NCBI GenBank assembly: GCA_027619975.1
Contig: JAQCGX010000034.1
Location: 1-36,977 of the forward strand
Reading direction: 5' to 3'
DNA from: Nitrospinota bacterium
GTDB lineage: Bacteria > Nitrospinota > Nitrospinia > Nitrospinales > VA-1
DNA length: 36,977 nucleotides
In this document: positions 5,908 through 9,248 of the stretch, piece by piece
Layout: the number at the start of each line of letters is the position of its first letter
Position numbering within the stretch: the stretch's first letter is position 1
Translations under genes and position numbers: made by a program
The notes under the pieces: generated by a model
Told to the model about the DNA's origin: nothing
The model's input: the letters and a program-made list of their open reading frames with translations, nothing else
Databases searched by the model: none

Positions 5908-6711
5908 TTGGATATTGCCTCCTTTATAGGAATCATTTCAGGTGTTTCACTAATTATCACTGCCATTTATATGGGCAGCGGTTTTGATATTTTTATCAAT
6001 GGACCAGGAATCATGATCGTATTTGGCGGAACCGTTGCCGCCACCCTGATCACATTCCAAATGAAAGACGTTTTTTCGGCCTATAAAGCGGCACTTTTCG
6101 TATTTTCGGAAAAAAACCATGACCCCAACGACATGGTGTCCACCATGGTCGATTTATGTAGTCTCACTCGCCGATCGGGCATTGTTTCTTTGAGCCGTTT
6201 GGATGTTCAATCCGATTTTTTGAAAAAGGTATGCAATCTCATCGCCGATGGCACCAAGGAAGAAATGATGCGGGATACATTGAATATTGAAATCGAATCC
6301 ATGAAACAACGGCATTTTATTATTCAGGATGTTTTCAAAAAAATGGCCACCTATTCCCCCGCGTTCGGCATGCTGGGAACCTTGATCGGTTTGATCCAAA
6401 TGCTGACCCAATTATCCGATCCAGACAGTGTCGGTCCTTCAATGGCAGTCGCTCTGTTGACCACTTTTTACGGGATGGTTCTTTCGACTATGATTTTCAA
6501 TCCGATTGCGGGAAAACTGCGGGCAAGGACAATGGTGGAGGTGATTAATCTGGAAATTATTTTTGAAGGAGCCATTTCTATTTTGCAGGACAATAACCCC
6601 TTGCTGGTTTATGAAAAGCTATCATCGTATATTCCAGAGTCGCTTCGTCGACCAATGCACCAGAAGATGTTGAATAAAAAATTCGCGTTGAACATTCAAA
6701 AAGTTAAATAA
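5908..6711 (+). CDS. motA: flagellar motor stator protein MotA
   Basis: MotA forms, with MotB, the proton-conducting stator in the inner membrane. The 267-aa protein has the MotA layout: two N-terminal membrane helices (IGIISGVSLIITAIYMGSG; GPGIMIVFGGTVAATLI), a large cytoplasmic loop with charged residues, then TM3 with the conserved proline (YSPAFGMLGTLIGLIQML) and TM4 (VALLTTFYGMVLSTMIFNP). The C-terminal cytoplasmic tail is basic. The start is TTG at 5908; nearby ATG 5894 and GTG 5901 are out of frame, and a weak ACAGG lies 6 nt upstream. motB follows after 20 nt. The frequent GMLGTLIGLI-type TM3 supports MotA/PomA rather than ExbB or TolQ. Whether it drives flagella or gliding cannot be told from this window. 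Confidence 0.9.
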   Translation: MDIASFIGIISGVSLIITAIYMGSGFDIFINGPGIMIVFGGTVAATLITFQMKDVFSAYKAALFVFSEKNHDPNDMVSTMVDLCSLTRRSGIVSLSRLDVQSDFLKKVCNLIADGTKEEMMRDTLNIEIESMKQRHFIIQDVFKKMATYSPAFGMLGTLIGLIQMLTQLSDPDSVGPSMAVALLTTFYGMVLSTMIFNPIAGKLRARTMVEVINLEIIFEGAISILQDNNPLLVYEKLSSYIPESLRRPMHQKMLNKKFALNIQKVK

Positions 6712-6731
6712 CGAACAAAGTTTCTCTTACA

Positions 6732-8144
6732 ATGACAACTTCTAATCAAATAGGAATGTTAAAAGAACAACTCAGGGTCAAATCCCTGGAGTTGAAAAAG
6801 AGAGATATCGAGAGGACCCAACATGAGAACAAGGTCCAACAAGTCATTGAAGTCAGCAGAAAGAAAATATCCAATTTAAAACAGGAAATTGCTGAAAAGG
6901 ACAAATCGATTCGGAATGCTTCTTCTGTCCCTATCGAGGGGTCGCAGTCAAAATCAATTGTAGACTCAACGCCAAACTCACTCAAAGAGATCAAACTTTC
7001 TAAAGGTATTTTAGCGCTGAGGCAGAAAAATTCCATTCTCACCGATAAATTAAGGGCTGAGAAAGAAAAACGAGAAAATTCAGCCAAAGAAATAGATCGG
7101 TTATTAGAGGAAATACAAAGACTCCAGGGAAATTCTGAAAAAACCGCCCTATTAAAAAAACAACTCGCGGAAATGGAGGTGGAATACCAGCACTTCCAGA
7201 AAAAATATAAAAAACTTCTTGAAGAGAAAAAGGAGATTTTAGCGGAGTATCAGGAACTCCAATCCGACAGGATAAATAATAGACCTGAAGTTAACCAGGA
7301 ATTGGAAGATCAACTTGCATTTTACAAAGCTGAAAAAGGAAACCTGGAACTTGAACTTGAGAACAATAAAAAACTTTTCAATAAAAAACTAGCCGATAAA
7401 ATTAATAAAGTTGAAGAAGAATGGAGGGGGAAAACCAAAGTTCTCCGCAGACAAAAAGACCGAAAAAAACATTTTTCCGGAGAATCAATGGATGAGGGCG
7501 AAGGGCCTGCGTGGATTATTACCTACTCGGACATGGCCACCCTGCTCCTGACATTTTTCATCCTCTATTATTCCATAGCGGCTCAGAACCTTGGCAAATT
7601 CAAGGATGCGATTCTGGAAGAATCTGATAAAAACCTGGGTCTGATTGAATTGATTGAGAGTACGAAAATAACAACCGCCTTACAGAATTTTTCCGGATTC
7701 AAGTCAAATAATATTCTAAATGATATGAAAGATTTCGCGACAGATGAAAACAATCTTGGTATTACAGAAAATAAATCAAAAATAATTATACGGATACCAG
7801 GCAAGACTCTTTTCCAGCCAGCTTCTGCAGTTTTAGAGAAACAAGGCTGGCCCATACTTACAGAAACAGCGGCAATTTTTAAAAAATACCCCAATTATAA
7901 AATTCATATTCAGGGTCATACGGATGATGATTCTGTTACAACGGAGAAGTTCCCAACAAACTGGGAACTTTCAGCAACACGGGCAACAGCGGTGCTTAGA
8001 TTTTTTGTGGACAAGGGGTTGGACCCCATTCGATTGACAGCAACCGGCTATGCAGACACGTTTCCCTTGCATCCCAATGACACGGCAGAAGGCAGGGCCT
8101 TGAACAGGAGAGTGGAATTTGTTTTGGAAAAAATCACACAATAA
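6732..8144 (+). CDS. motB: MotB-like stator protein with a ~250-residue N-terminal coiled coil
   Basis: The C-terminal half is a typical MotB: GPAWIITYSDMATLLLTFF is the single membrane helix, with the proton-binding Asp at residue 267, and residues ~350-465 form an OmpA-type peptidoglycan-binding domain (IHIQGHTDDD; NWELSATRATAVLRFF; LNRRVEFVL). Normal MotB proteins have only ~20-30 residues before the membrane helix. Here ~255 residues precede it, rich in Lys, Glu, Leu and Gln with heptad-like spacing (for example LKKQLAEMEVEYQHFQKK), so a long cytoplasmic coiled coil is predicted. It is 470 aa in all. motA lies 20 nt upstream and the PilZ gene overlaps its end by 26 nt. The extension may contact a cytoplasmic partner such as the PilZ protein (inference). 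Confidence 0.88.
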   Translation: MTTSNQIGMLKEQLRVKSLELKKRDIERTQHENKVQQVIEVSRKKISNLKQEIAEKDKSIRNASSVPIEGSQSKSIVDSTPNSLKEIKLSKGILALRQKNSILTDKLRAEKEKRENSAKEIDRLLEEIQRLQGNSEKTALLKKQLAEMEVEYQHFQKKYKKLLEEKKEILAEYQELQSDRINNRPEVNQELEDQLAFYKAEKGNLELELENNKKLFNKKLADKINKVEEEWRGKTKVLRRQKDRKKHFSGESMDEGEGPAWIITYSDMATLLLTFFILYYSIAAQNLGKFKDAILEESDKNLGLIELIESTKITTALQNFSGFKSNNILNDMKDFATDENNLGITENKSKIIIRIPGKTLFQPASAVLEKQGWPILTETAAIFKKYPNYKIHIQGHTDDDSVTTEKFPTNWELSATRATAVLRFFVDKGLDPIRLTATGYADTFPLHPNDTAEGRALNRRVEFVLEKITQ

Positions 8145-8601
8145 GAGCGATACTCCCAAAGTACTCTTTAAAAGTCCCGAGGAGATACGCCAATACTATC
8201 GAGTTGTCCCGTCATCAGGCGAGCCCGTTGACCTGACCCTGGATAATAAGCATGTATCTGTTATTGATATCAGCTCAGGGGGATTCTGTTGCAAAAACAG
8301 CGATTTTAGACCTGGAAGATTTTATTCATTTCACCTTTACCTTCCCGATAATACCCTTAAAATTTTTGGAAAAGTTCAAATTCTGGAAATCACAGAATCA
8401 AACTTATGCCGGGGTCAATTTAGTAACCTGGACCCTGAATTTGAAAACCACATTAACCGCTACACTCTGAACCGGCAAAAGGAAGAGCTGGAAAATAGAA
8501 AAAAAACCGCCGCCTCAAATAAAGTTTTTCTTCCCCGTCCTGACGTGGTAATTTGGTTTCCCCCATTCATTACCGTTTCCTCAAAACTCACTCAATGTTA
8601 A
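8119..8601 (+). CDS. PilZ-domain protein, c-di-GMP binding
   Basis: PilZ domains bind cyclic di-GMP through an RxxxR motif and a (D/N)xSxxG motif. Both are present: RQYYR at residues 24-28 and DISSGG at 50-55. The rest of the small beta-barrel follows (FRPGRFYSFHLYLP; LKIFGKVQILEI; CRGQFSNLDPE). The start is TTG at 8119, which overlaps motB by 26 nt, supported by AGGAGA 7 nt upstream (8106-8111). The C-terminal ~30 residues are basic then hydrophobic (VVIWFPPFITV) and are not part of the PilZ fold. The gene order motA-motB-pilZ suggests a YcgR-like role, coupling c-di-GMP level to stator output (inference from context and family). Confidence 0.85.
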   Translation: MFWKKSHNKSDTPKVLFKSPEEIRQYYRVVPSSGEPVDLTLDNKHVSVIDISSGGFCCKNSDFRPGRFYSFHLYLPDNTLKIFGKVQILEITESNLCRGQFSNLDPEFENHINRYTLNRQKEELENRKKTAASNKVFLPRPDVVIWFPPFITVSSKLTQC

Positions 8602-8615
8602 GCACAGGCTCTTAT

Positions 8616-9248
8616 ATGGAAAATGAAATTGAAAAAAGTTCTCACTGGTCTTCCCATGAAATAAAATTGATCAATCATGTGGAAGTTTTTCTGCGTAAAC
8701 CGGGAATCATGAAAAAAGCGGAGCAGTATTTGAATGCTCTCGGAGATGCGATGATTCTAGAACTTGCCCAGAGTAAAATACCTTTCCCCCCGGAAACCAA
8801 ACTGGAAAAAATCCAGTTGACCCGTGGAGAAAACCACAAAGGCTTCCCCTACCTGTCCCTGGATATTCCCCAGATGTTCACCAAAACAGAAATGTTTACT
8901 TTCCGGACCATGTTCTGGTGGGGGCACTACCTTGGTTTCTCGCTTATTCTAAAGGGAATAGATTTACCCCGATATACGGACAACCTGCTCAAAGAAAAAA
9001 ATAATTCTCATTTTGGAAATGTTTATCTGTCCGCCGCCACGACCCCATGGGAATGGAGTCGGACCGATGATAATTTCAAAAACATTCATGAAACGTCCGG
9101 TGAAGAACTTCAAAAGATTATCGAGACCGTTGAGTACATCAAGCTGGTCCGGTTTTGTCCCGTAAATGATGAATCTTTTAAAAAGCTGGATTGGGTCCCA
9201 GCAGGCATTTCCAGTTGGAGGGATTTATCGAAAATCACCGAGGCATAA
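8616..9248 (+). CDS. hypothetical protein following the motility genes
   Basis: I do not recognise this family. The ~210-aa soluble protein has aromatic-rich segments (TFRTMFWWGHYLGFSLI) and several conserved-looking charged motifs (LTRGENHKGFPYLSLDIP; AATTPWEWSRTDDN). No signal peptide or obvious catalytic motif is visible. I chose ATG at 8616 since upstream options (TTG 8553, ATG 8595) lie within or at the end of the PilZ gene; no start has a strong ribosome binding site. The tight linkage to the PilZ gene suggests cotranscription with motAB. Confidence 0.65.
   Translation: MENEIEKSSHWSSHEIKLINHVEVFLRKPGIMKKAEQYLNALGDAMILELAQSKIPFPPETKLEKIQLTRGENHKGFPYLSLDIPQMFTKTEMFTFRTMFWWGHYLGFSLILKGIDLPRYTDNLLKEKNNSHFGNVYLSAATTPWEWSRTDDNFKNIHETSGEELQKIIETVEYIKLVRFCPVNDESFKKLDWVPAGISSWRDLSKITEA

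Follow-up and report, generated by a model that had tools for sequence, protein, structure and literature searches.

A long N-terminal extension of MotB common to two stators of a Nitrospinota order, with a possible role as a docking or control arm

How stators are recruited and opened, and how one is chosen among several, are open questions, and the short tail that MotB carries in the cytoplasm is itself poorly understood. This tail is described as short (PMC9039648), and in Salmonella a GFP placed at the MotB N-terminus raises proton leakage, with the tail located near MotA and FliG (PMC7564593). PilZ proteins that act on flagellar motors are known as well, namely YcgR, FlgZ and MotL. Zorya motors require a long tail made by ZorA, and the length of the ZorB N-terminal helix varies between types (PMC11890865).

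Here we describe a MotB with a long N-terminal extension, encoded in a window of 36,977 nt (the whole stretch of DNA analysed, contig JAQCGX010000034.1) from a Nitrospinota bacterium genome of 2.93 Mb and 96.6% completeness. By titles or abstract starts, no description of a long N-terminal MotB coil was found in the open-licence PMC literature; passages of PMC9039648, PMC11890865, PMC10659934, PMC7564593, PMC9389320 and PMC9093738 describe none in MotB, and none of the motility terms tried occurs in PMC10839748 or PMC8026999.

The stator locus and its MotB

The genes for MotA, MotB, a PilZ protein and a conserved protein X follow one another on the forward strand, ahead of an opposite-strand metallo-beta-lactamase-fold gene (Table 1). 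MotB retains an intact plug and transmembrane helix (MotB_plug, PF13677, residues 245-293, 9.3e-13) and an OmpA domain (5.1e-17), and its Asp267 is invariant across 25 aligned rows. Because 266 residues precede this Asp, the short N-terminal cytoplasmic segment typical of the MotB family is absent; the alignments to solved MotBs and their relatives begin no earlier than residue 248 of the window protein, which corresponds to residue 6 of 6ysf, so that ~240 residues are extra. The earlier note on this DNA had reported a long extension ahead of the membrane helix and, as the next gene, a PilZ protein overlapping motB. Both are confirmed: ~253 mostly helical residues come before the transmembrane helix, and the PilZ frame (PF07238 at 1e-6) starts 26 nt before motB ends. 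In what follows, stators of the window's type are called class 1, and a second long-MotB type of the same order of marine bacteria class 2.

Table 1. Features of the stator locus, with positions in the window.
Feature	Position	Strand	Basis
MotA/PomA-type stator subunit, 267 aa, TTG start	5908..6711	+	PF01618 6.2e-26; PomA structure 8bri 3.7e-51
MotB with long N-terminal extension, 470 aa	6732..8144	+	ORF, Pfam, alignment to solved structures
Tip helix, residues 2-64; best-conserved residues 1-20, motif KEQL(R/K)	6735..6923	+	AlphaFold2, pLDDT ~92 over residues 11-50
Variable linker, residues 65-81, low confidence	6924..6974	+	pLDDT <50 at 66-81
Distal rod, helices 82-130 and 135-178	6975..7265	+	AlphaFold2; landmark spacing 96-124
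Possible hinge, residues 179-184, inside conserved block C; 6 residues below usual length	7266..7283	+	Helix break
Proximal rod helix 185-253, reaching the membrane	7284..7490	+	AlphaFold2; landmark spacing 191-228
GGAG + 5 nt + ATG (residue 253), possible internal start of a short MotB	7479..7490	+	Start-codon/SD scan
Transmembrane helix 261-284 with Asp267	7512..7583	+	Ortholog alignment, AlphaFold2
OmpA-like peptidoglycan-binding domain, residues 360-459	7809..8108	+	PF00691
PilZ protein, TTG start, 26-nt overlap with motB; RxxxR and DxSxxG	8119..8601	+	PF07238, motif alignment
Conserved downstream protein X, without Pfam match, DUF1054-like model	8616..9248	+	Adjoins PilZ in most class 1 loci

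Protein X gave no Foldseek match at E 0.001 or better, while VIA-align returned Z scores of 12.2 to 2a8e (B. subtilis Q45498) and 9.8 to 3mqz (DUF1054); its model points to no more than a fold shared with DUF1054 proteins, and to no link with the motor.

Selection, anatomy and distribution of the extension

Comparison with relatives shows the extension to be under selection as protein, with dN/dS of 0.06-0.28 in 10 of 11 pairs with finite dS (the pair of the window and L006 is saturated) and extension dN above core dN in 11 of 11 pairs. The MotB orthologs are collinear through the extension, and this together with the dN/dS values rules out a frameshift origin, one of the ways in which the earlier note thought its own proposal could fail. 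Another was an internal start that leaves the N-terminal part without expression. There is indeed an internal ATG at residue 253 (7488-7490) preceded by GGAG five bases upstream, Met253 recurs in many class 1 orthologs, and the scan found no SD at the annotated MotB start; all three would favour a functional MotB that begins here as a normal short MotB, its N-terminal part mostly unused. Against this stand the GGAG, found in the window only among 35 sequences, the lack of a start codon at the residue-253 position in all six class 2 members compared, and the protein-level selection and constrained lengths of the extension, which make this reading very improbable. A non-expressed N-terminus, whether from a frameshift or an internal start, was rejected on dN/dS and the constrained spacings. 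A short second MotB product from ATG 7488 is possible as an extra, in which case the N-terminal part would still be expressed. In L009, L011, L013, L016 and L049, different internal start codons have SD-like matches of another kind ahead of them.

The helices listed in Table 1 are those of an AlphaFold2 monomer model (mean pLDDT 76.6, pTM 0.35), and K, R, E and D make up 40% of MotB residues 1-250. A coiled coil, as proposed earlier, is supported for the extension as a whole, where hydrophobic periodicity near 3.5 beats shuffles (p 0.0014), and for helices 3 and 4, which carry the signal (p 0.0006 and 0.0016), but not for helices 1 and 2, neither of which is significant when tested alone (0.13 each). 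If straight, the rod at residues 96-253 would reach at most ~24 nm (158 residues x 0.15 nm); there may be a hinge at residues 179-184 and a fold-back of the rod. Its dimer state, straightness and direction are inferred, the model being a monomer with a pTM of 0.35. A search of PDB sequences with the extension profile gave a single weak match, to the coiled coil of JIP3 (E 9e-4).

Residues 1-20 of the tip are the best conserved, with a mean pairwise identity of 0.47 versus 0.15 in the linker. Landmark spacings, taken from an alignment of 40 extensions (26 class 1 and 14 class 2, tip-less members left out) and dependent on that alignment, are largely fixed: one is 35 residues in 39 of the 40, and that between landmarks 96 and 124 is 28, again in 39. 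Between 124 and 166 the spacing is 42 in 21 of 26 class 1 members and 49, one heptad more, in 10 of 14 class 2 members, with outliers that are not all heptads (30, 34, 38, 41 and 109 in class 1; 46, 48 and 51 in class 2). The 166-191 spacing is 31 in 28 of 40 and 25 in the window, i.e. six residues short at the hinge, and the 191-228 spacing is 37 in 24 of 26 class 1 members (30 and 44 in the rest) and 36 in all 14 of class 2; neither 31 nor 36/37 is a multiple of seven. The heptad rule is thus strong and not absolute. The tip-to-rod linker, between landmarks 64 and 96, ranges from 32 to 91 residues across the 40 extensions.

A profile built from 18 extensions was used to survey 77 genomes of the phylum at E 1e-6. 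Fifty carry the arm, all of them within the order (50 of its 64 genomes): the window's family accounts for 33 of 46 and three further families for 17 of 18. The 13 remaining genomes of the class have none; seven of these do have a MotB, with frames of at most 317 aa among the matches listed. In six genomes searched at E 0.01 the profile matched MotB loci only, giving no case of the module outside MotB. The number of residues before the invariant Asp varies from 126 to 328 in 25 extended MotBs; in six class 1 relatives (L008, L012, L021, L023, L028 and L030) the tip has been lost and 126-245 residues remain, and the class 1 MotB of G038 is in pieces (L032). Taken together, the alignments and the survey show a selected module, specific to the order among the genomes of the phylum surveyed: its predicted tip helix is conserved, its linker is free in length, and the spacings in its rod are largely fixed and mostly heptads. 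In loci L079-L135 (Halieaceae, SAR92, SAR116 and others) one or two MotB-like genes come after MotA, and many of their products carry 30-160 residues before the Asp; the MotB-like N-terminus in L080 and L084 is acidic, Ala/Pro-rich and not coiled-coil-like.

The window's own genome carries FliG and flagellin, and in the window's family 31 genomes have both arm and FliG, five FliG only, two the arm only and eight neither (Fisher p 1.7e-4); on this co-occurrence the window stator may drive a flagellum. The arm could instead belong to a non-flagellar 5:2 motor for secretion, envelope or defence functions, like the ZorA tail in Zorya. Such motors with long cytoplasmic tails do exist (PMC11890865), the Pfam scan, which covered 26 of the 34 window frames, recognised no flagellar gene besides MotA and MotB, and G031 and G032 (61% and 84% complete) have the arm without a FliG match. 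We nevertheless consider this improbable, given the arm-FliG association, the joint absence of FliG and arm from G002, G008 and G009 (91-98% complete), and a PomA-like MotA of normal length that lacks a ZorA tail and matches nothing in PADLOC at E 0.001. The window MotB matches ZorB models over its plug/OmpA part only. In G028 (95% complete) FliG is present, and arm, plug and flagellin are absent.

One extension on two stators, and the PilZ neighbour

The class 2 stator of the order is encoded as MotB, class I adenylate cyclase, MotA and pentapeptide repeat protein, with no PilZ in the operon; the putative cyclase has both domains of its family (Adenyl_cycl_N, PF12633, 5.6e-48; Adenylate_cycl, PF01295, 3.7e-72). 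Among 36 class 2 extension loci, assigned by position and length, a cyclase lies within 4.5 kb of 33 extension matches, the misses being in G011, G050 and G007. Cyclases without class 2 also exist, e.g. in G061 and other families of the class. Class 2 operons with a long MotB, at L042:9343-14820 and L035:5390-10890, tie a cAMP enzyme to the stator. The second long MotB of the window's genome (L035:9299-10938, minus strand; G000:C3) is split over two reading frames, and class 2 MotB has stops in G006 and a shortened extension in G003; these forms may reflect decay in the genus or assembly errors. A third MotAB of the same genome has a short MotB, of 269 aa, with a receiver-HD protein before it (L034:7052-10036), so that all three stator loci adjoin genes of the cyclic-nucleotide-signalling type.

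Class 1 and class 2 extensions are homologous. The class 1 extension HMM matched six class 2 extensions at 2.7e-35 to 9.7e-10 (34.6-118.4 bits), whereas 1200 heptad-preserving shuffles scored 1.7 bits at best and reversed sequences at most -0.5, and hhalign aligned the two extensions collinearly over 243 columns (99.5%, E 8e-23). The motor cores tell a different history. In a tree of 50 MotA + MotB cores, from which L159 and L207 are missing owing to a TM pattern mismatch and in which L177, L123, L224 and L028 form long branches, class 1 is nested in Desulfobacterota MotA - short MotB - PilZ stators (100/100) with L202 and L209 as its nearest cores (100/99), and class 2 falls elsewhere; a clade uniting class 1 and class 2 cores is rejected (AU p 2.2e-5). 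A homologous extension on cores that are not sisters is therefore a module shared between unrelated stators, with a history that differs from that of the motor core. The simplest reading is recombination or fusion between paralogs as the route of sharing, in whichever direction; loss of the arm in Desulfobacterota would need several events on the core tree.

The earlier note saw in the extension a contact arm that responds to c-di-GMP through the PilZ neighbour. The window PilZ (160 aa) has PF07238 as its only domain to reach the cut-off, Hormone_3 falling below it, and so has no separate N-terminal YcgR domain; its ORF is ~30 residues longer C-terminally than those of relatives (160 vs 123-133 aa aligned). 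It retains RxxxR...[DN]xSxxG, which we take to be the c-di-GMP motif of PilZ, and because this is kept, c-di-GMP control of this stator is plausible, though not necessarily via the arm. For the arm as the binding site of the adjacent PilZ, making the stator c-di-GMP-responsive, one could point to the intact motif, to the 27 of 28 class 1 loci in which PilZ adjoins MotB, and to the precedent of the motor-acting YcgR, FlgZ and MotL. But the same MotA-MotB-PilZ order, with a short MotB and overlapping open frames, is found in 9 of the 9 top Desulfobacterota loci, the query's own included, in a survey of near relatives of the L122 MotB (the PilZ of L210 and L211 being weak BLAST matches, 2.8e-4 and 1.2e-4, and Pfam having been run on L202, L209 and L216). 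PilZ is also retained in the six class 1 relatives that lost the tip, the class 2 arm occurs without it, and L026 has a full arm with no PilZ detected within 1.5 kb downstream. PilZ and the arm are thus each found where the other is missing, and PilZ is not the arm's obvious partner; on this distribution it is instead a partner of the stator core here, in an association that either predates the arm or is unrelated to it. A c-di-GMP response through the arm thus finds no specific support, and we judge PilZ binding by the arm to be unlikely. L122, L202 and L209-L216 form a Desulfobacterota stator subfamily with PilZ in the operon; no PilZ was found just downstream in 21 more distant loci (L217-L237), of which L218 and L236 end too soon to tell.

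A possible docking arm and its relation to known motors

We suggest that the extension, as a coiled-coil stalk of constrained length that tethers a conserved tip helix to the static MotB axle, serves as a docking or gating arm, a reading for which we see about as much reason to believe as to doubt. The earlier idea of a contact arm fits this anatomy, in that the tip is conserved, the rod is constrained in length and the whole is common to two stators. Because MotB is a dimer, which we infer here, two copies of the extension would pair as a parallel coiled coil and emerge from the MotA5 ring on its cytoplasmic face, lengthening the static axle. The tip might then dock on a putative partner in the cytoplasm that both stators share, most likely the rotor/switch or an adjacent factor. 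Docking could aid stator recruitment, or open or brake the stator ion channel, an effect proposed on the precedent of Salmonella, where even the short MotB tail takes part in gating. The second-messenger proteins of the two operons, PilZ and adenylate cyclase, would tune the stators directly or indirectly. The arms of neighbouring stators might, alternatively, pair with one another and steady the stator ring without any separate partner or signal; the rod is helical and charged, and mixed pairing is possible because the same module sits on two co-resident stators. Yet conservation is highest in the tip, which lies past a linker of free length; docking accounts for this better than rods packed side by side, and we place little belief in such bundling.

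That one arm is common to two unrelated power units suggests a docking or control arm absent from well-studied motors. More broadly, and more tentatively than the docking arm itself, the extension could be a transferable antenna whose length is constrained, carried on the static MotB axle and acquired by unrelated stators. A single system in the cytoplasm, be it the rotor switch, the chemosensory baseplate or a dedicated hub, could then select among them. Each would have its own input: c-di-GMP through PilZ, cAMP or, in one relative, a receiver domain borne by an independent coil. We hold this doubtful. If true, MotB, not MotA or FliG, would be the signal-input subunit of the motor, and the rod a ruler that sets its reach. 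A natural MotB arm with constrained lengths and a conserved tip would provide a handle on stator recruitment and ion leakage, and would exemplify the transfer of a regulatory module from stator to stator without the motor core.

Long coils ahead of a MotB plug also occur in three proteins of other genomes of the order. The first, of 711 aa (L257:4219-6351, minus strand, G012; MotA at 6404-7279, minus strand), reads receiver, ~350-residue coil, MotB plug and OmpA, in a cluster rich in receiver-like genes; its sister MotBs, of 600 aa (L258:6630-8429, minus strand, G012) and 635 aa (L259:6531-8435, plus strand, G010), have no receiver match. The MotB core of all three is presumably of the E. coli-like type. 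As homologues of the arm these coils were rejected: G012 and G010 whole-profile scores of -17.4 and -19.8 bits do not exceed the top score of 300 shuffles each, and with the block A matrix fractions of 0.027, 0.523 and 0.372 of 1000 shuffles score as high, giving no support. That a coil of this kind can bear a signal domain is clear from the receiver - coil - MotB arrangement, which is independent support for MotB coils as signal input and is silent on the partner of the window arm.

The window stator can thus be set beside several known systems. Like MotB, PomB and MotS, its MotB has a plug/TM helix with the invariant Asp, an OmpA domain and MotA directly upstream; unlike them, it carries ~253 residues before the TM helix in place of a short cytoplasmic segment. 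The Desulfobacterota MotA-MotB-PilZ stators (L202, L209-L216) have the closest motor core, the same operon and overlapping MotB/PilZ frames, but their MotB frames of 238-266 aa are without the extension. The class 2 stator, by contrast, has an extension that is homologous to and collinear with that of class 1, on an unrelated core and with adenylate cyclase in place of PilZ. L257, L258 and L259, from the same taxonomic order as the window, share with it a long coil ahead of the MotB plug, whereas their coil has no detectable homology to the arm and only one of the three bears a receiver. Zorya ZorAB is likewise a 5:2 rotary motor with a long cytoplasmic tail, but that tail is a bundle of five ZorA C-termini, whereas the window arm is on the MotB side. 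The comparison suggests that a docking or control arm on MotB is a variant not described in well-studied motors, and one with an unusual evolutionary signature.
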